Shown: positions 2,060 through 33,169 of the stretch, piece by piece
Layout: each line of letters begins with the position of its first letter
Position numbering within the stretch: position 1 is the first letter of the stretch
Assembly (NCBI GenBank): GCA_013151865.1
Contig: JAADHN010000089.1
Coordinates: 104,353-137,798, forward strand
From: Kiritimatiellota bacterium
GTDB lineage: Bacteria > Verrucomicrobiota > Lentisphaeria > Oligosphaerales > JAADHN01
DNA length: 33,446 bases
Reading direction: 5' to 3'
Position numbers and translations under genes: made by a program
The notes under the pieces: model-generated
Databases searched by the model: none
What the model was told of the DNA's origin: nothing
Seen by the model: only the letters and a program-made list of their open reading frames with translations

Positions 2060-3499
2060 ATGAAGAACATCATTCTGTTAATCACCGACACGTACCGGTA
2101 CGACAATTTGGGCGATCGGGCCGTCGCCATGCCCGTACGCACGCCCGAGCTGGACCGGTTCCGGCATGAACACGCTGCGGAGATCCACGGTTTCTACACA
2201 GGCAGTTTCCCCACAATCCCCCACCGGACGGACGTGGCCACCGGACGGGTCGGCTGGCCCCGGTACGGTTGGCAGTCCATCGAACGAAGCAGCGGCAACC
2301 ACGTGGCCGCCCTGCTGGGAAAGGAAGGTTACGCCACTCAGCTCATCTGCGACTGCCCGCACCTTTTCAACGCAAACTTCAATTCGGCGTTCAACGCCGC
2401 CTTCCAACACCGGGGACAAGAGGGCGACAGACCATTGCTCCGTCTCGATGAGCCGATCATCGAAATCATGCCGCCCGACAAGACGCGGCAGCGCCCTTCG
2501 TTTCGCGGCCATCCCCTGGTGGACGTCCACCGCTGGACCAACCGCTATTCATCGAGCGAGCTGGACAAATTCCCAGCCCGCACCGGCACGACGGTCGTCC
2601 GCTGGCTCGAGGAAAACCGCAATGCGTCCCCTTTCTTCCTTTGGGTCGACTTCTTCGATCCGCACGAGCCCTGGGATGCCCCCGAATACATGGTGCGCCG
2701 CTACGACCCGGATTACAGCGGTCCGCCCATGATGCACCCGAACTATGGCCGGACCGACGCCTACACCTCGAGCGAACTCCGCAATCTGCGGGCGCACTAT
2801 GCCGCAGAGGCGGAACTGGTGGACCGGTGGCTCGGCCGGGTCCTCCAAAAAATCGACGACCTCGAACTCTGGGACGATACGGTCGTCGTGGTGACCAGCG
2901 ACCACGGAATGTCCCTCGGCGAACATGGGCGCACCGGCAAAAGCAACATCAGCGACGACGATTCCCGTTATTGGCCGATCTACCCGGAAATCGCACACGT
3001 CCCCTTCCTGGTCGCCGCACCGGATGTACCGGCCGGCGCTTCCCTTGAACTGCTGGCCCAGCCGTGCGACCTGCTTCCCACGGTCTGTGAATTGGCCGGC
3101 GCCGAACCGGCTGCACCCGAACCCTTCCACGGCCGCTCGTTCGCACCGGCCCTCCGCCATGGGTCGGGGACCCACAGAACACAGGTGGTCAGCGGCTGCT
3201 TCCTGCGCCCCGACGCAGCGAGAGGTGTGCCCCGCCGCGCCTCCACGCCGTTCGTGGTCTCGTCCGACGGTTGGGGGTACGCTCCGGTGGGAGCACGGGG
3301 GACGCCCGAATTGTATGCCCTCAATGAAGACCCTTTGGCCGAAAACGATTTGGCCGTTGCCCACCCCGACAGGGTCGCCGCGATGCATAAACGGTTCCTC
3401 GAATATCTCCGACAGTTCGCACCCGAGGAGTGGATCGCAGCCTGTTGGGGCGCCGCACCGCGACTCGATACCGGCGGAAGCTGGGCGGTCGACTACTGA
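2060..3499 (+). CDS. sulfatase-like hydrolase with Thr at the nucleophile position
   Basis: Sulfatase/phosphodiesterase superfamily protein of 479 residues. Metal-site elements are intact: D10-T11 at the end of the first strand (NIILLITDTYRYD) and DHGMSLGEHG near the C-terminal half, plus a DPHEPWD substrate-loop motif. The loop that normally reads C/S-x-P-x-R is GSFPTIPHRTDVATG, which puts Thr52 where the formylglycine precursor Cys or Ser belongs, with Pro54 and Arg56 kept. Thr cannot be converted to formylglycine, so the enzyme may be a phosphodiesterase or phosphatase-type hydrolase using Thr directly, or a divergent sulfatase subfamily. ATG at 2060 has AAAGGAT just upstream (2047-2053). 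No signal peptide. It follows the first sulfatase by 230 nt and precedes a MocA oxidoreductase by 73 nt, probably in one transcription unit. Confidence 0.88.
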   Translation: MKNIILLITDTYRYDNLGDRAVAMPVRTPELDRFRHEHAAEIHGFYTGSFPTIPHRTDVATGRVGWPRYGWQSIERSSGNHVAALLGKEGYATQLICDCPHLFNANFNSAFNAAFQHRGQEGDRPLLRLDEPIIEIMPPDKTRQRPSFRGHPLVDVHRWTNRYSSSELDKFPARTGTTVVRWLEENRNASPFFLWVDFFDPHEPWDAPEYMVRRYDPDYSGPPMMHPNYGRTDAYTSSELRNLRAHYAAEAELVDRWLGRVLQKIDDLELWDDTVVVVTSDHGMSLGEHGRTGKSNISDDDSRYWPIYPEIAHVPFLVAAPDVPAGASLELLAQPCDLLPTVCELAGAEPAAPEPFHGRSFAPALRHGSGTHRTQVVSGCFLRPDAARGVPRRASTPFVVSSDGWGYAPVGARGTPELYALNEDPLAENDLAVAHPDRVAAMHKRFLEYLRQFAPEEWIAACWGAAPRLDTGGSWAVDY

Positions 3500-3572
3500 A
3501 ATTGCCCGATGCCCAACGGCGGCGGCGCCCCGGCCCGGCCGATCGCACCGCCCCTCTGGAGGAGCGAAGACC

Positions 3573-4688
3573 ATGTCGAGCCGACAAGCGCTCAAAGTCG
3601 GAGTCCTGGGCCTGAGGCGCGGAATGACGTTCGCGACCCAGTTCAACACGTTGCCGGAAACGCGAACCGTCGCTGTCTGCGACCAGGACTCGGCGCGCAT
3701 CGAACATGCCCTCAACACGTTGGGTAGCGACGCTCGCGGGTTCTCCGAGTACAACGAAATGCTCGCTACGGATCTGGATATCGTGGTCGTGGCCTCGGGC
3801 GCCCCGGACCATGTGCTTCACTGCTGCCAAGCGCTTGAAAGCGGACGACACGTCCTCAGCGAAGTCCCGGCCGACATCTCGCTGGACCGTTGCCGGGAAC
3901 TCGTGGCTTCCGTCCGGAAAACAGGCCGCAAGTACATGCTGGCCGAGAACTGCTGTTACTGGGGCTTCGTACAGGAATACCGCCGCCAAGTCCGGACCGG
4001 ACGACTCGGCGACGTGCTCTATGCCGAGGGGGAATACCTGCACGACGTTCGGCGCCTCTATCTCGAGAACCTCGACCTGCCGAAAGACGCCGGGTTTCGG
4101 GCGCTTCGCGAACACCCGAAAAGCCGTCGAACCTGGCGCGCCGACCTGCATCCCATCAATTATCTGACGCACGATCTGGGCCCCCTGCTCGAGATCCTCG
4201 ATGACCGTTGTGTGAGCGTCTGCGCCATGGCCACGGCCTCCGCCTGCGGCGAAGGGTTCGCACCCGCGGCCGAAGTCGCCCTGTTCAAGACCGCCGGAGG
4301 CCGGGTCATCAAGCTGTTGACCGAGTTCTCCCTGCCCCGCCCCAGTCATCACTGGTTCGCCCTGATGGGGACAAAGGGCAGCCTCGAGTCGCCCCGCGGT
4401 CCGGCGACGAAGCACCTTCTTTACTGCGAGGACGAAAACATGGAGTCCTGGTCCGAAATGGCTTGGTCCACCCGCCTGCTGGCCGGACCGGCAGCCGCCT
4501 GGAAGTCCGGACACGGCGGGGCCGACTGGCACATCTCCCGCGAATTTGCAGACTGCATTCTCCACGATACCCCCTCCCCCATCGACGTGTTTCGGGCCAT
4601 GGATTACACGGTACCCGGGATCTGCGCGGTCCGCTCCATCGAACAAGGCGGCGCCCCCGTGCCCATCCCCGATTTGCGTGAAGATTGA
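3573..4688 (+). CDS. Gfo/Idh/MocA-family oxidoreductase lacking the EKP lysine
   Basis: NAD(P)-dependent sugar dehydrogenase family, 371 residues. The N-terminal Rossmann strand is LKVGVLGLRRG; the C-terminal alpha/beta domain includes DLHPINYLTHDLGPLLEIL and ends with the family-typical stretch MDYTVPGICAVRS and PIPDLR. The conserved Glu-Lys-Pro at the domain junction, whose Lys assists catalysis in most members, is here E97-V98-P99 (HVLSEVPAD). This substitution marks subfamilies whose chemistry is less certain. ATG at 3573 is preceded by a strong GGAGGAG (3558-3564). No signal peptide, so cytoplasmic. It sits between two sulfatase genes and a secreted lyase-like gene, which suggests oxidation of a released sugar. 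Family call firm, substrate unknown. Confidence 0.9.
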   Translation: MSSRQALKVGVLGLRRGMTFATQFNTLPETRTVAVCDQDSARIEHALNTLGSDARGFSEYNEMLATDLDIVVVASGAPDHVLHCCQALESGRHVLSEVPADISLDRCRELVASVRKTGRKYMLAENCCYWGFVQEYRRQVRTGRLGDVLYAEGEYLHDVRRLYLENLDLPKDAGFRALREHPKSRRTWRADLHPINYLTHDLGPLLEILDDRCVSVCAMATASACGEGFAPAAEVALFKTAGGRVIKLLTEFSLPRPSHHWFALMGTKGSLESPRGPATKHLLYCEDENMESWSEMAWSTRLLAGPAAAWKSGHGGADWHISREFADCILHDTPSPIDVFRAMDYTVPGICAVRSIEQGGAPVPIPDLRED

Positions 4689-14681: not shown

Positions 14682-16100
14682 ATGAACACTGCACTCCGAC
14701 GTTCCACGACTCCCGCCCAAGCCTCGACGGGGCAGCCTCCGCCCAACATCGTTTTCATCCTCGCCGACGACCTGGGGTGGGCCGATACCGGCTGCTACGG
14801 CGCCGACCTCCACGAAACCCCGAATATCGACCGCCTCGCACGTGAAGGCCTGCGATTCACCGACGCGTACGCTGCCGCGCCGGTCTGCTCCCCCACGAGG
14901 GCCTCCATCCTCACCGGCCGGCACCCTGCCCGGCTAAACATGACCATCTGGTCCGAAGCGGCCGAACACCCGCCGCGAAACCGCAGGCTCATCCCCCCGA
15001 TCACCCGGAGCGGCCTGCCCCTCGAGCAAGTCACTTACGCCGATGTGCTCCGACAGCGCTATTTCATGGCCCATGTCGGAAAATGGCACCTCGGCGACGC
15101 CTCGCATTATCCCGAAGCCCAAGGCTTCGACCTGAATATCGGTGGGACTCATTGGGGCTGCCCTGTGACGTATTTCTATCCGTACAAGGGGGCCTTCAAT
15201 TCAGAAGAGTTCCGGTACATTCCCGACCTCGAATCCGGAAACGAATCCGAGAACGCTTATCTCACCGACCGACTCACCGACGAAGCCCTGCGACTCATGG
15301 GGACCGTTCGCGACCGCCCCTTTTTCATCAATCTCTGCTACTACACCGTGCACACGCCGATCCAGGGAAAACCCGACTGGGTCGACCACTACCGAAAGCG
15401 ATCCCGGCCGGACCTGCATCACCGCAACGTCGGATACGCGGCGATGGTGGCGAGCCTGGACGAAAACGTCGGGCGCATCCTCCAACGCCTGGACGAACTC
15501 GGAATCGACGACAACACCGTCGTCTTCTTTTTCTCGGACAACGGCGGCTACGTGGGACGATATGCCGGGGAAACGGTCACGGACAACTTTCCGCTGCGTT
15601 CCGGGAAAGGGGCCCTCTACGAAGGCGGCATCCGCGAACCGCTGATCGTACGGTGGCCGGGACGGATTCCGGCAGGCGCCGTCTGCTGCACCCCGGTCGT
15701 CAGCACGGACTTTTTCCCGACCTTCCTCGATCTGGCCGGACTGGGTCGGGACCCCCGCCGGGAGGAAGCAGCGGACGGGCTCAGCCTGAGCCCGCTGTTG
15801 CGGACTCCGCAAACGAAACTCGACCGCGACGCCCTGTATTGGCATTACCCGCACTACTACGAGACCACCGCCCCCGTAAGCGCCGTCCGGCGGGACGCTT
15901 GGAAATTGCTCGAGTACTTCGAAGACGGCCACATCGAACTCTACCACGTCTCGGAAGATATTTCCGAGCAGCACGACATGGCCGATTCGGAGCCGCAGAT
16001 CGCCGCTGAACTGCGACAAATGCTTCAGGACTGGCGCCGGGCTGTGGGGGCACGTTTACCGAGCCCGAACCCGGACTTCACGCCGGATCGCAAAAAGTAG
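14682..16100 (+). CDS. sulfatase (canonical CxPxR, arylsulfatase-type), no signal peptide
   Basis: Formylglycine-dependent sulfatase of 472 residues, a normal length for the S1 family. Metal Asp pair D29-D30 is in FILADDLGWAD. The signature loop C69-S-P-T-R73 followed by ASILTG is the canonical FGly motif. GKWHLG, VHTPIQGK, FSDNGG and RSGKG supply the remaining active-site Lys, His, Asp/Asn and Lys. The C-terminal part EGGIREPLIVRWPG is typical of arylsulfatase-like exo-enzymes acting on sulfated glycans. ATG at 14682 has AGGAG at 14664-14668, a somewhat long 13-nt spacing. The first 20 residues are polar and Pro/Ser rich, so export by Sec is not supported. A single gene, divergent from the GH2 gene and converging on the GT4 gene. 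No maturase gene is in the window. Confidence 0.93.
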   Translation: MNTALRRSTTPAQASTGQPPPNIVFILADDLGWADTGCYGADLHETPNIDRLAREGLRFTDAYAAAPVCSPTRASILTGRHPARLNMTIWSEAAEHPPRNRRLIPPITRSGLPLEQVTYADVLRQRYFMAHVGKWHLGDASHYPEAQGFDLNIGGTHWGCPVTYFYPYKGAFNSEEFRYIPDLESGNESENAYLTDRLTDEALRLMGTVRDRPFFINLCYYTVHTPIQGKPDWVDHYRKRSRPDLHHRNVGYAAMVASLDENVGRILQRLDELGIDDNTVVFFFSDNGGYVGRYAGETVTDNFPLRSGKGALYEGGIREPLIVRWPGRIPAGAVCCTPVVSTDFFPTFLDLAGLGRDPRREEAADGLSLSPLLRTPQTKLDRDALYWHYPHYYETTAPVSAVRRDAWKLLEYFEDGHIELYHVSEDISEQHDMADSEPQIAAELRQMLQDWRRAVGARLPSPNPDFTPDRKK

Positions 16101-27426: not shown

Positions 27427-28071
27427 ATGCTTCTGGTGGACTTGACGCTCCCCCTTCCGGAACAGACGGCGAGATTGACCGAAGTGCCCATCCGCTCGTC
27501 CGGGGCCGCCTACACCGGGATGACATACCGACTCTCCATCAATTCCATGCACGGCACGTACATCGACTTTCCGGGACACATCAAGGAAACGGACGACGGT
27601 GCGCATGCTTCCAACTATCCGGTTGAAAAACTGTTTCGAGTCGACGCAGTCGTCGTGCGCCTGGACAGGGCAAGCGGTTCCGGGGCGGTCACGGCCGAGG
27701 AACTGGCTGCGGCCTTCCCGAAAACAACGCCCCCGGACGGACCGCCCGGCGCCCTGATCGTCAATGCCTTGGGAAACCGCCGGTTCGATGAAATCGCCCC
27801 TCGGAGCGTCTACTTTGCGCACGACGCAATCCGATGGATCATCGAACGCAACGTCCACCTGCTGATCTCCGACATTTACGAAAGCCGCGCCATTCACGGT
27901 GTGTTCACTGAGCTGTTCAGGTCACGCATCGCGGCCGTGTGCTCTGCCGTGAACCTGGCGTGCCTGACCGCACCGGTTGTGAAGGTGTCCGTCTTTCACC
28001 TGCCGATCCCCGGCGTCACGCAGCTCCCCTGCCGGGTCATCGCCGAACTGACCCCCCGAGAAATCCAATGA
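27427..28071 (+). CDS. cyclase-family protein with variant metal site
   Basis: Protein of 214 residues of the putative cyclase family, which includes kynurenine formamidase and other metal-dependent amidases or hydrolases. The motif normally H-x-G-T-H-x-D-x-P-x-H is here S40-M41-H42-G43-T44-Y45-I46-D47-F48-P49-G50-H51, so the first and second metal His positions hold Met and Tyr while Asp47 and His51 remain; His42 is shifted by one. This suggests changed metal binding or a different reaction. ATG at 27427 has AGGAGAT (about 27411-27417) upstream. The stop overlaps the next gene's ATG as ATGA (28068-28071), pointing to coupled translation with the acetyltransferase-TIM fusion. No signal peptide. 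The role is unknown; it may open a lactam, ester or formyl group on the shared substrate. Confidence 0.8.
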   Translation: MLLVDLTLPLPEQTARLTEVPIRSSGAAYTGMTYRLSINSMHGTYIDFPGHIKETDDGAHASNYPVEKLFRVDAVVVRLDRASGSGAVTAEELAAAFPKTTPPDGPPGALIVNALGNRRFDEIAPRSVYFAHDAIRWIIERNVHLLISDIYESRAIHGVFTELFRSRIAAVCSAVNLACLTAPVVKVSVFHLPIPGVTQLPCRVIAELTPREIQ

Positions 28072-29507
28072 CCCGAATCGACATTGCCGCCGAATTGACC
28101 GCCCTCGGACTGCGGCGGGGCGACATCGTGTTGCTCCACAGTTCCCTTTCCAGCCTCGGGCACGTCGAGGGCGGCGCCGATGCGTTGATCGATGCGTTCC
28201 TGGACGTTCTCGGTCCCGAGGGGACCCTGGTCGTGCCCACTTTCGGGGCGCTGGGGATCGTCACCGAGCACCTGCGCGCCAGGGCGGCGGCAATCGAAAG
28301 TTGTCACCCCCGAGCACGCGTGGCCGCCGTCGGCAAGGACGCCGCGGAGATCTGTGCAGACCACTGGAAGGCGGAAACCGCTCACGGCGCAGGGACCCCC
28401 TATACCCGTATCGCGGCCCGGGGCGGATATGTCTGTCTCCTCGGGGTCGACCAAGACCGCAACACCACGCTTCACACGGTCGAGGCATTGCTCCGGCTGC
28501 CTTACCTGAAGACGACATCCGAAACCACATTCGAGACCCCCGAAGGCACCGTGGCCCGATCCTGGAAGTACTTCCCCGGACCGCACCGCGATTTCATCGG
28601 TCTGGACCGCGTCCTGCGCGAGAGCGGCAAACTGAGGATCGGTCGGATCGGCAGTGCGGTCGTGCGCCTGATTCGCAGCCGCGACCTGATCGACATTTCC
28701 CTCGAAGTCGGACGCCGGGATCCCGCTTTCGTGCTTTGCGACAACCCCAACTGCACAGACTGCGTCCTGCAACGGGCCGCCCTTCGGCAAGATCGCTTCA
28801 GCCGTGAGCACTTCACCCCGGTCGCGGCAGCGGGCCTGGCGGGTCGTTACGTTCCGGAAATCGTCGAAAATGTCCGGGCCGCGGGAGTCACCGGAATCGA
28901 ACTCGACATGCTTGAGGGCAAACCGGTTCAGGCGCTGAATCCGGACAAACTCGCGGGAGCCATAGGCGATTTCCGGGAAGCCGGATGTCCGGTCGCGTCC
29001 CTTCGATTCAGCGCCGTACCAAACCGCATTGAATCGGTCCTGGAAATCGCCGCGGCGGCTGCGGTGCCGCGCCTGGTGCTGCCGCTGTCCCACTTGGCGG
29101 AACGTTTTCTGGCAACGGCGGTCGAAACGGGTATCACCCTATCGTTCTTCAATATCGGCATGGCTGCGGAAGCCGCGGCCGAATTGCTGCTCGATCTGCG
29201 GAAACGCGGGTTGCCGGCCCGATTCACATTCAATGCGGCGAATTTCGCGCGCGCCGGCGAAAAACCGTTCCTGCACAGTTTCCGAACCAAGGTCCGTCGG
29301 TTTGTTGACCAATTGGATGTTGAGGACTGCCTGTTCGATGGTCGTCCCACGCCGCTCGCCCGTGGAAACGCCGAGGTCAAGGAACTGATTTCCATCCTGC
29401 GTTGCACGGGGTTCTCGGGCCCGCTCGTGCTCGGGACCGGAAACCGTCCGGTGGCCGACCTGCGGGAGACCGTCGCGCGCTTCGACGAACTCTTGCAGGC
29501 GATGTAA
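28068..29507 (+). CDS. AAC(3)-type acetyltransferase fused to a sugar isomerase/epimerase-like TIM barrel
   Basis: Two-domain protein of 479 residues. Residues 1-245 match the antibiotic N3-acetyltransferase family (PF02522 type): H24-S-S in VLLHSSLSSLG, S78-C-H80-P in IESCHPRARVAAVG, and N132-T-x-x-H136-x-x-E139 in RNTTLHTVEALL, the expected catalytic His/Glu. Residues 224-232 form C-DNPN-C-TD-C, a possible zinc cluster. Residues about 255-479 are a TIM barrel like sugar phosphate isomerase/epimerase or AP-endonuclease-2 proteins (EIVENVRAAGVTGIELD; LARGNAEVKELISIL). The family is known for aminoglycoside resistance, but many members act on other amines, and this context suggests an amino-sugar-like substrate. 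Its start overlaps the cyclase stop by 4 nt. No signal peptide. Confidence 0.85.
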   Translation: MTRIDIAAELTALGLRRGDIVLLHSSLSSLGHVEGGADALIDAFLDVLGPEGTLVVPTFGALGIVTEHLRARAAAIESCHPRARVAAVGKDAAEICADHWKAETAHGAGTPYTRIAARGGYVCLLGVDQDRNTTLHTVEALLRLPYLKTTSETTFETPEGTVARSWKYFPGPHRDFIGLDRVLRESGKLRIGRIGSAVVRLIRSRDLIDISLEVGRRDPAFVLCDNPNCTDCVLQRAALRQDRFSREHFTPVAAAGLAGRYVPEIVENVRAAGVTGIELDMLEGKPVQALNPDKLAGAIGDFREAGCPVASLRFSAVPNRIESVLEIAAAAAVPRLVLPLSHLAERFLATAVETGITLSFFNIGMAAEAAAELLLDLRKRGLPARFTFNAANFARAGEKPFLHSFRTKVRRFVDQLDVEDCLFDGRPTPLARGNAEVKELISILRCTGFSGPLVLGTGNRPVADLRETVARFDELLQAM

Positions 29508-29619: not shown

Positions 29620-30612
29620 ATGACGGCAGAAACAATCAGGGTCGGTGTAATCGGGACCGGCGCGTTGGGCCGGCACCATGCGCGACTGTACCGGCAGTGC
29701 GAGGGAGTCGAACTCGTCGGAGTGTACGACCGGGATCCGGAAGCGGCCCGACGCGTGGCCGAGGAAGCCGGGACGCAGGTGTTCGAATCCGATTCGGAAC
29801 TGGCCCGTGCCGTAGACGGCCTCAGCGTGGCCGTCCCGACCGACAGGCATTATGAAGTCGTCGCCGCATTGTTGGCGTTGGACCGGCACGTCCTGGTCGA
29901 AAAACCCATCGCGGCCACCGTGGCCGAGGCCCGCCGACTCGTGGCCGCAGCAGCCCGGCGCGGCCTGGTTCTCGAAGTCGGCCACGTCGAGCGGTTCAAC
30001 CCGGTCCTGGATACCCTCCACCAAGTTCCCGGTGCGCCTCGATTCATCGAAGCGCACCGTTTGGCCCCCTATCCCCCGCCCCGCCCCGGCCTCCGCCCCA
30101 GGGGCACGGAAGTCAGCGTCGTGCTCGATCTGATGATCCACGACATCGACGTCGTGCTCGATCTGGTTCGCAGTCGACCGAAACGGGTGGATGCGGTGGG
30201 TGTCCCGGTCCTCAGCCCCAGCGAGGACATTGCCAACGCCAGAATCCTGTTCGAAAACGGCTGCATCGCCAACATGACAGCCAGCCGCGTGAGCCCGGAA
30301 CCCATGCGCAAAATTCGAGTGTTCAAACCCCGCGCCTATTTGTCCTTGGATTATCAGGAAAAAAAGGGCGAGATCGCCGCACTCGGACCCGCCGGAATCG
30401 TCCGCCAACCCGTGCCGGTCCGTGCAGCCAACGCCCTGCTCGAAGAGTTGCGGGACTTCTGCCGCTGCGTCCGCCAGGCAAAGGCGACGGGCGCGGTGCC
30501 CGAGCCCAGAGTCAGTGGACGGCAGGGACTCACCGCGCTCAGGCTGGCCGAGCGAATTTTGCGGCGCATCCACGCCGCCGCACCCAAAACAGAAGGGCCC
30601 GACGCATCCTGA
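29620..30612 (+). CDS. Gfo/Idh/MocA-family oxidoreductase, close to nucleotide-sugar dehydrogenase type
   Basis: Cytoplasmic NAD(P)-dependent dehydrogenase family, 330 residues. Nucleotide loop VGVIGTGALGRHHARLY, intact catalytic HVLVEKPIA, and VGHVERFNPVLDTL plus VVLDLMIHDIDVVLDLV follow in order. These last segments are reminiscent of the family branch that includes UDP-N-acetylglucosamine 3-dehydrogenase (GnnA), but the resemblance is from memory and the substrate is not proved. ATG at 29620 is preceded by AAAGGA (29605-29610). It lies 112 nt after the acetyltransferase fusion and ends the right-hand cluster. A dehydrogenase beside an acetyltransferase would fit oxidation, amination and acetylation steps on a sugar, although no aminotransferase of the sugar type lies in this cluster. 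Confidence 0.9.
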   Translation: MTAETIRVGVIGTGALGRHHARLYRQCEGVELVGVYDRDPEAARRVAEEAGTQVFESDSELARAVDGLSVAVPTDRHYEVVAALLALDRHVLVEKPIAATVAEARRLVAAAARRGLVLEVGHVERFNPVLDTLHQVPGAPRFIEAHRLAPYPPPRPGLRPRGTEVSVVLDLMIHDIDVVLDLVRSRPKRVDAVGVPVLSPSEDIANARILFENGCIANMTASRVSPEPMRKIRVFKPRAYLSLDYQEKKGEIAALGPAGIVRQPVPVRAANALLEELRDFCRCVRQAKATGAVPEPRVSGRQGLTALRLAERILRRIHAAAPKTEGPDAS

Positions 30613-31063
30613 AAACTCTCCGCTCCGCCTCGAGGAGAAGCTCCCTGCCCCCGGACAGTTCGGAATTCGCGTCGGGGACGATACAACGCTATAGTAATAT
30701 ATTATGCACAGAGCGTCTCGGATTGGGTCGGGCACTCCTCCGGGGGCTGCGAGTTCGCCGACTCCCCGGGTTCTTTCGAGACGATACAATCATGCCCGGA
30801 CACCGGCTTCCTTGGCCCGGTCAGCCCTGATCGATTCATGGACTTCATCGCGAGAGGGCGCAGTTTACACGGATTCAAGTCGTTGCGTCGAACGCCCGAC
30901 CGGCCGAGGCCGGCTTGAAACACCGCCTCGGTGAGCGGCGGCACTAGAACCTGAAGGCGTGTGAGATGCGCTGCAACAGCAGATGGCTCGTCCATTGTTC
31001 AGCGTGGCACACCGAGGGACCGGAACGATAAAACCTGGATCGGAACATCAGAGGTGGGAAAAG
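30613..31063. other. 451-bp spacer with AT-rich promoter-like element
   Basis: No gene recognised; the open frames have poor composition. An AT island TATAGTAATATATTATG (30690-30706) stands out in this GC-rich DNA and contains TAATATATTA, a perfect 10-bp palindrome, and -10-like boxes, but no -35 box is clear. The ten bases GACGATACAA occur at 30677-30686 and again at 30780-30789. Confidence 0.5.
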
Positions 31064-33169
31064 ATGGCAAAAAAGCCCCGGAAACCCGTTCAAGCCGCAA
31101 CCTCCGACGGCGCGTCCGACCATTCCACAACCGACCTGGACCAGATCCGACGGGAAATGAGCGCCCGCCAGCCCGGCCCGAACAAACGACTCGTCAGACT
31201 CGCGGCCGTGGGGGGCACGATCCTGCTGGCGGTCGCGTTGCTCTGCGTTTGGTCCTTCTATCGCTACAATCTGGGCAGGCAGAGCTTCAGGGCCATTTAT
31301 CAGAACGCCGACCTTGAGAACATGCGCATTTTCGCTCCCGGCGATTACAAAGAAATCGAGGAACTCCGCAAGAAAGCGCAGGCCCAGAATTGGCTCTTCC
31401 ATCCCGGCGCCGTGGCCAGCCTCTACGGCGAGGCCGGCCGCAAAGTGTCCGCGGCAACCGCCAAGGTCGACAATGTCAAGCGCAACTATGAAGTCCTGCG
31501 CAAGCAGTTCGGGAAGCTGAAAGAGGAAGCCAAAGCTCAGAATTTGGCCCAGTATGCGCAATCGGCCTGGCAACGCATCGAGCAGATCGACCGAAACACC
31601 GCCGACCCCACGGCCGCGGACTTCGATCCGGACGCGGCGATCCGGGACCTGCACACCGCCATCCAGATACTCGAACAGCAGCGGAACAATTTCGGCGTCA
31701 TCAAACAATACGAGGCGGCTCGACAGGCATATATCAAGATGGCCAAAGACCTGAACCCCGAGGAGTGGAAAAAGGTGGCCCCGAGAATCGAGGCCACACT
31801 GCGCAGTTCCCTGGGACGGGCCAAGGCGGCCGCAGCCGCAGCCCAGTGGAAACGTGCCGCAATGGCCTACCGCGATGCCTTGTCCATCCTCGAAAAAGGC
31901 AGTTCGGAAATAATGAGCGCACGAAAGGCGGCTCGACAGGCTCAGACCCGCCTTGAGGCGGCGCTGGCCAAGGCCGACCGCCGCGAACTGGCCGCGAGCG
32001 CCGCACGTGCCTGGGCCGCAATTCAAAAAAAACAGGCGGATTTCAAGGCGGCGCTCAAAGCGTACCGCTACCGGGAAGCCGCCAAAGCAGCCGAGGACAC
32101 TGTCGCGTTGCTTCAAAAAGTCCAGGCGGACATCAAGGAAGCCAAAACTCGCCGCACCGAGGTACTCAAGAAACTTGAAGACCGCTACACCATGCTGGCC
32201 AAACAGGAAGAACTGCTCCTTCGAAATTGGAAACCCGAATGGACGGCCGCCAAGGACCGATATCGGCAAGTGCAGAAATTGGCCCGCGGCCGAGATTACG
32301 TGGCCTTGCTCGAAGCGGCCCGTAACCTGTTGAACGAGCTGGACGCACTCGCCCAAAAACTCGGCGGCATCTCCGGGGAATTGGGAAAGGCCAAAACAGC
32401 CTTCGAGAAGCTTTATAAGAAAGCCGTCCCCGAACTCCTGATTGTCAATGCACCCGACCTTTGGGATAAAGTCGCCAATCGCCGCGCCGAGGCGCTCGGG
32501 GCCGAAAAACGCGCCAATATGCGGGAGGCCGTCAACGCCTACAACGATGCCGCCGCCGCCCTCGGCCAAGCCTTGGACACAGTCGACAAGCTGATCGCGA
32601 CAGGAAAAAAGCTGCGGGCTGAAATAAGGCGCCGACAACACGAGTACCGGCGAGGTCTCAACGCCTTCGCAACCCGGAAGAGGACGTTGGCCCGCCGGCT
32701 CATCCGGACAGCCGGACGAGCCTGGGAAAAACGGAACTACCGGAGCGCCGTCGAAATGCTGCGCAAGGTCGCAAGCTTGCTGCCGGCCAACCGGTTCGAA
32801 GCCAGAACCGACGGTACGGTGGTCGACTACGGTCGAGGCTTGCTGTGGGTGGCCGACGGCGCGGGAAAAGGTTGCATGAACGGCGAGAAACTCGACTGGT
32901 ATAGCGCCCGCACGCGAGTCAACCAACTCATTTTCGCCGGCAAACGCCTCTGGCGACTGCCCACCGACGACGAGCTGCAGTCACTGCTTGACGTCGACCC
33001 AAAAGAATTCGCCAAACTCTTCCCGAACACACGGCCGGACTACTATTGGACAAAGACGCAGATGACCGACGACACCGAACACGCCCTCTGCATCCATTTC
33101 GGCACCCGAAAAACCCGGCTCTGCCGCAAGAACGACCGCTCCTTCGTTCGCCCCGTTTTCGCCCCGTAA
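31064..33169 (+). CDS. inner-membrane-anchored helical-repeat protein with C-terminal DUF1566 domain
   Basis: Protein of 701 residues. A polar 45-residue N-terminus (KKPRKP, then acidic and Ser/Thr rich) precedes one membrane segment (RLAAVGGTILLAVALLCVW, about 46-64), with the long part most likely periplasmic. Residues about 110-570 are highly charged, almost all helical, and show a Trp-containing unit that recurs every 66-86 residues (Trp near 168, 234, 315, 391, 466 and 552). Residues about 580-701 match the DUF1566/Lcl C-terminal domain: GRGLLWVAD, WYSARTRVNQLIFAGKRLWRLPTDDELQSL in parts, DYYWTKT and FVRPVFA. The domain is found in surface and adhesion-like proteins. ATG at 31064 has GAGGTG 7 nt upstream. 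Likely an envelope scaffold; no enzymatic motif is visible. Confidence 0.82.
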   Translation: MAKKPRKPVQAATSDGASDHSTTDLDQIRREMSARQPGPNKRLVRLAAVGGTILLAVALLCVWSFYRYNLGRQSFRAIYQNADLENMRIFAPGDYKEIEELRKKAQAQNWLFHPGAVASLYGEAGRKVSAATAKVDNVKRNYEVLRKQFGKLKEEAKAQNLAQYAQSAWQRIEQIDRNTADPTAADFDPDAAIRDLHTAIQILEQQRNNFGVIKQYEAARQAYIKMAKDLNPEEWKKVAPRIEATLRSSLGRAKAAAAAAQWKRAAMAYRDALSILEKGSSEIMSARKAARQAQTRLEAALAKADRRELAASAARAWAAIQKKQADFKAALKAYRYREAAKAAEDTVALLQKVQADIKEAKTRRTEVLKKLEDRYTMLAKQEELLLRNWKPEWTAAKDRYRQVQKLARGRDYVALLEAARNLLNELDALAQKLGGISGELGKAKTAFEKLYKKAVPELLIVNAPDLWDKVANRRAEALGAEKRANMREAVNAYNDAAAALGQALDTVDKLIATGKKLRAEIRRRQHEYRRGLNAFATRKRTLARRLIRTAGRAWEKRNYRSAVEMLRKVASLLPANRFEARTDGTVVDYGRGLLWVADGAGKGCMNGEKLDWYSARTRVNQLIFAGKRLWRLPTDDELQSLLDVDPKEFAKLFPNTRPDYYWTKTQMTDDTEHALCIHFGTRKTRLCRKNDRSFVRPVFAP

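Follow-up and report, generated by a model that had tools for sequence, protein, structure and literature searches.

Antibiotic_NAT proteins (PF02522), the family that includes the aminoglycoside 3-N-acetyltransferases or AAC(3) enzymes, carry a catalytic TxPhiHPhiAE motif (PMC8956665). Group 1 of the family is represented by AAC(3)-IVa (PDB 6mn3-6mn5), whose C-terminal extension holds a C3H1 zinc site that this group conserves and whose minor-subdomain insert 1 carries contacts to the aminoglycoside (PMC8956665). Kynurenine formamidase (KynB) and isatin hydrolase belong to a separate family, PF04199, with the metal motif HxG[T/A]HxDxPxH (PMC6117287); the histidines serve KynB as zinc ligands, and 99.7-100% of its sequences have them (PMC4243253). 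The PF01261 family of sugar phosphate isomerases and epimerases (e.g., 3p6l) is represented here by standalone barrels of Latescibacterota, which have Glu, Asp, His, and Glu at the canonical metal positions. This report describes a locus in which an AAC(3)-type acetyltransferase is fused to a PF01261-type barrel and preceded by a PF04199 cyclase-fold protein. The locus lies in a 33,446-nucleotide stretch of DNA from a Kiritimatiellota bacterium, called the window below. The acetyltransferase-barrel fusion is genuine and widespread.

The fusion gene is one intact open reading frame (translation of 28068-29507). The reading frame, coordinates, and two-domain layout proposed by a first-pass annotation agree with the translation, Pfam, an AlphaFold2 model, and structure comparison, and both halves match the fold and descent ascribed to them (Pfam, hhalign, fold comparison). 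The full-length model, built on 41 relatives, has a mean pLDDT of 93.8 and a pTM of 0.86. The N-terminal half matches Antibiotic_NAT at 145.2 bits against a cut-off of 25 (E 2.9e-42), and residues 1-239 of the model superimpose on AAC(3)-IVa 6mn3 with a Z of 30.4 and an rmsd of 2.0. The barrel scores 12-15 bits against PF01261 and does not reach the curated Pfam cut-off of 31.1, but its assignment is confirmed by profile-profile alignment to standalone isomerases (e.g., L089, L090, and L095; hhalign E 1.8e-14 over 214 columns) and by fold. Fold comparison was needed because a five-sequence barrel profile retrieved nothing meaningful from the sequences of solved structures; modelled residues 241-479 gave a Z of 22.8 with the sugar phosphate isomerase/epimerase 3p6l and 22.6 with the isomerase Art22.

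Table 1. Positions in the window of the fusion gene, its upstream partner, and their diagnostic residues.
Feature	Position	Strand	Basis
PF04199 cyclase-fold partner, metal histidines missing	27427..28071	+	Pfam E 9.3e-13; AF2 pLDDT 94.9; Z 20.4 to isatin hydrolase; co-occurrence
Fusion gene, 479 aa, Antibiotic_NAT + PF01261-type barrel	28068..29507	+	translation, Pfam, AF2 model, 41-sequence alignment
Antibiotic_NAT domain, residues 1-238	28068..28781	+	PF02522 E 2.9e-42; Z 30.4 to 6mn3
Gap point, residues 59-62, minor-subdomain insert 1 missing	28242..28253	+	gap vs class 2 relatives and AAC(3)-IVa
Catalytic motif T133-xx-H136-xx-E139	28464..28484	+	invariant 41/41; matches published TxPhiHPhiAE motif
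H173, proposed fourth zinc ligand	28584..28586	+	invariant 41/41; C3H1 set in 49/51 fused sequences
C224-x4-C229-x2-C232, predicted zinc knuckle of group 1 Antibiotic_NAT	28737..28763	+	alignment to AAC(3)-IVa CEEC; published C3H1 Zn site; 44/46 class 1
TIM barrel, residues 247-479, metal site lost	28806..29504	+	hhalign E 1.8e-14 to standalone isomerases; Z 22.8 to 3p6l, 22.6 to Art22
F361 for first metal-ligand Glu	29148..29150	+	column count
N389 for metal-ligand Asp	29232..29234	+	column count
D417 for metal-ligand His	29316..29318	+	column count
G456 for last metal-ligand Glu	29433..29435	+	column count

Records labelled Latescibacterota, Kiritimatiellaeota, and Planctomycetota contain full-length relatives of 54-62% identity. 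Within the window's phylum, a barrel-only query matched 43 of 388 genomes, distributed over 22 of 198 genera. Each of the 43 genomes has one chromosomal copy, and in the extracted genes the open frames are long enough for both domains; the exceptions are genes cut off at contig ends and a single split gene. The Latescibacterota phylum (64 genomes) and the Planctomycetota phylum (392 genomes) yielded additional fused members, among them the five sequences (L082, L106-L109) of a divergent class 2. Class 1 members show 47-62% identity and are open in frame. The chance that two genes were joined by an assembly or annotation error is negligible. More than 50 genomes share the architecture, class 1 stays in frame at the identities given above, the junction sequence is conserved, and the model is a confident single chain; one relative is split into two frames, but the split is inside the NAT domain and away from the junction. 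This split relative (L059:8302-9741) probably reflects an assembly frameshift.

In the NAT-domain tree, a branch with support 95/86 sets all 24 sampled fused sequences together, and the fused group adjoins a group holding standalone zinc-knuckle NATs, a placement that fits a single fusion event. Haloarchaeal proteins named "AAC(3) family N-acetyltransferase" (L115 and L116, 39-41% identity), the best-covering standalone matches in the plasmid collection, sit in this sister group. They share the zinc knuckle (LLCDEPGCWWC) with the fusion, but they stand alone, retain insert 1, and have no cyclase neighbour. The full fusion itself was not found in any record of the plasmid collection. A literature search confined to open-access papers found no earlier description of such a fusion, and the domain pair is assessed as new against this literature and the Pfam results.

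The acetyltransferase half resembles AAC(3)-IVa in the fold of residues 1-239, in the TxxHxxE motif, and in the C-terminal zinc-site extension; it differs in the absence of insert 1, in Pro170 for Glu185, and in the 240-residue barrel that follows the zinc knuckle. The AAC(3) signature residues H136 and E139 named in the first-pass annotation are, with T133, invariant in the alignment of 41 relatives. The motif in the window reads TTLHTVE, in which Val replaces the motif Ala before Glu. A histidine-proline pair at residue 80, put forward as part of the same signature, is not conserved: the 41 sequences have Cys (28), Ala (7), His (5), or Val (1) at this position.

Three cysteines, C224, C229, and C232, are also invariant (41/41), and the GCEEC of AAC(3)-IVa aligns with C229-T-D-C232. 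The cysteine cluster noted at the domain junction exists, but it is not a separate junction motif and belongs to the C-terminal zinc extension of the NAT domain. The known zinc site was preferred to an iron-sulfur or redox function, which had been weighed as an explanation of the cluster. H173, C224, C229, and C232 form a complete set in 44 of 46 class 1 sequences. Class 2 has Asp at 224 and a gained Cys at 169, and three Cys and one His are present in all five members. H173, C224, and C232 are lost together in L110; in L112 all three Cys are gone, and the His and the Cys at 169 stay. Ligands that are retained and lost together point to one metal site made from H173, C224, C229, and C232. The C-terminal extension with C3H1 ligands places the fusion in group 1 (AAC(3)-IV type), with zinc binding predicted.

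The barrel shares with PF01261 isomerases an FxPANFxxxGExPF-like stretch and the topology of the catalytic face, but it has F, N, D, and G for their E, D, H, and E and is always fused to a NAT domain. The quartet of the standalone barrels (EDHE or EDDE) is kept in none of the 51 fused sequences. At the first ligand position, these sequences have Y, R, F, V, C, A, or other residues; the early-branching L111 and L112 alone have Glu there. N or S prevails at the second position and D at the third, and the residue at the fourth is G, S, A, R, or W. Q415 was rejected as the counterpart of the metal-ligand His, as the barrel-only alignment puts this position at D417. With its metal-binding residues lost, the barrel is probably a substrate-binding module. 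Judged by its residues, it is unlikely to be a metal-dependent isomerase, and a pocket that lacks the usual metal and would serve binding is the simplest reading. The earlier idea that the substrate or product of an isomerase or epimerase barrel is then acetylated, by channelling, is unsupported, as the four ligands are replaced in the window and the set survives in no fused relative. At another locus, the gene directly upstream of a fusion gene with a metal-less barrel encodes a PF01261 isomerase (L049:6968-7822) whose ligand set, E, D, D, and E, is intact.

In the barrel, E278, D280, P339, N362, D417, and D420 are conserved at the strand ends of the catalytic face, and D417, N362, and E278 could form a different active site. 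A doubtful alternative is a bifunctional enzyme, in which the barrel acts with altered chemistry, either metal-free or at a re-formed site (D417 and other acids), on the substrate or product of the acetyltransferase, in line with the first-pass annotation. Near-invariance of E278, D280, N362, D417, and D420, and also of Q415 and E436/E439, would suit such an enzyme, as would an acidic residue at 417 in 43 of 46 class 1 sequences and the Asp found there in the intact isomerase upstream of L049. The two metal-ligand Glu residues, however, never occur together in the 51 fused sequences, position 361 varies freely, and the barrel is conserved less than the NAT domain (33 of 234 versus 68 of 245 positions at >=95%).

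The upstream partner gene ends in a stop codon that overlaps the start of the fusion gene (ATGA). Its product shares the fold of kynurenine formamidase and isatin hydrolase (4cog, 4j0n; Z 19.6-20.4) and keeps the Asp and last His of their motif, whereas the first two metal histidines are Met and Tyr. The HxGTHxDxPxH motif thus reads MxGTYIDFPGH in the partner (MHGTYIDFPGH in the window), where Met replaces the first His in 29 of 31 sequences and Tyr the second in all 31. These replacements suggest that the metal site has been lost from the partner as well. In 31 of 54 loci the cyclase gene is found no more than 4 kb upstream of the fusion and on the same strand, in most cases as its immediate neighbour; it is just downstream in the early-branching L112, and it is encoded elsewhere in several genomes where the pair are not neighbours. 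Among the 388 genomes of the phylum, 43 have the fusion, 42 the cyclase, and 39 both. The cyclase is therefore present in 39 of 43 fusion-bearing genomes versus 3 of 345 others (Fisher p 2e-45, a value that ignores shared ancestry).

A role beyond resistance, as the first-pass annotation suggested, is likely for a gene that is present as a single chromosomal copy in 22 genera of one phylum, is tied to a cyclase, is absent from the plasmid records searched, and has mostly lost insert 1. The contrary explanation, a group 1 AAC(3) with an accessory domain that protects the cell from aminoglycosides, is improbable. It draws on the kinship with AAC(3)-IVa (30-33% identity, Z 30, and the same zinc extension) and on F59 and D231, which occupy the places of the drug contacts Trp63 and Glu249. 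In the alignment with class 2 relatives and AAC(3)-IVa, however, insert 1, with the drug contact Asp67, is almost entirely deleted in the fusion, and P170 stands at the place of the contact Glu185. A conserved single-copy chromosomal gene tied to a cyclase-fold partner also speaks against a resistance enzyme, as does the lack of the full fusion in the plasmid records searched.

Apart from the cyclase, annotation of the fusion loci revealed no constant operon mate, and PADLOC gave no match. A DegT aminotransferase, Gfo/Idh proteins, a creatininase, and ROK proteins occur near the fusion in a minority of loci and hint at amino sugars or aminocyclitols as the substrate class; as the non-cyclase neighbours vary widely, this class is weakly supported. 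Downstream of the fusion in the window, 29620-30612 encodes a protein that resembles UDP-N-acetylglucosamine 3-dehydrogenase (NF040723, E 1e-54, below the equivalog cut-off). Elsewhere in the window, two sulfatases and a Gfo/Idh protein that ends in a GH109-type domain (207-1829, 2925-4688, and 14682-16100) suggest sulfated-glycan catabolism, and 30983-33169 encodes a 728-aa protein whose C-terminal Lcl domain follows a long N-terminal region that looks helical. It is quite improbable that the acetyltransferase modifies a macromolecule, such as an amine of a protein, glycan, or lipid, to which the two metal-less folds would help it dock as a scaffold. The link between a catalytic domain that seems intact and two non-canonical folds of former enzymes would agree with this arrangement, as would the nearby sulfatases and glycoside-hydrolase-like dehydrogenase, but glycan-assembly neighbours are not consistent across loci. 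We know of no Antibiotic_NAT protein that acts on a macromolecule.

The genome of the window has five Antibiotic_NAT genes. In one of them (L003:1-2244; G000:C163:6313-7134), the NAT is fused behind an M28-peptidase-like domain. NAT matches in G388, G390, and G391 likewise lie in long open frames (about 890-950 aa), which suggests a second recurrent NAT fusion.

The explanation that best accommodates the locus, given a probability of about 0.5, is a conserved two-gene module built around a small-amine N-acyltransferase, in which the metal-less barrel and the cyclase-fold protein would serve for binding or as a scaffold. The fusion protein would be an acyl-CoA-dependent N-acyltransferase of the Antibiotic_NAT family and of the group 1 zinc-bearing type. 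H136, primed by E139, would deprotonate the amine, which would then attack acetyl-CoA. The barrel, derived from a sugar-phosphate isomerase by loss of the metal site, is probably a substrate-recognition, cap, or assembly module, and the cyclase-fold protein probably binds the same substrate or else binds the fusion protein in a complex. The most likely target is not a clinical aminoglycoside but an endogenous small amine (e.g., an amino sugar or aminocyclitol). A more far-reaching form of this reading, tentative and at clearly less than even odds, is a metabolic machine with one live acetyltransferase permanently coupled to two retired metalloenzyme folds that select or hold a new amine substrate.

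AAC(3) enzymes are chiefly known for resistance, and little is settled about what else the family does in bacteria. The fusion, of single origin and present with its near-obligate partner gene in several little-studied phyla, provides a concrete protein pair with which to address this question. In this pair, two metalloenzyme folds have lost their metal sites yet have stayed under selection beside an apparently intact transferase. If true, the coupled-module reading would give the group 1 AAC(3) lineage a native, non-resistance role.
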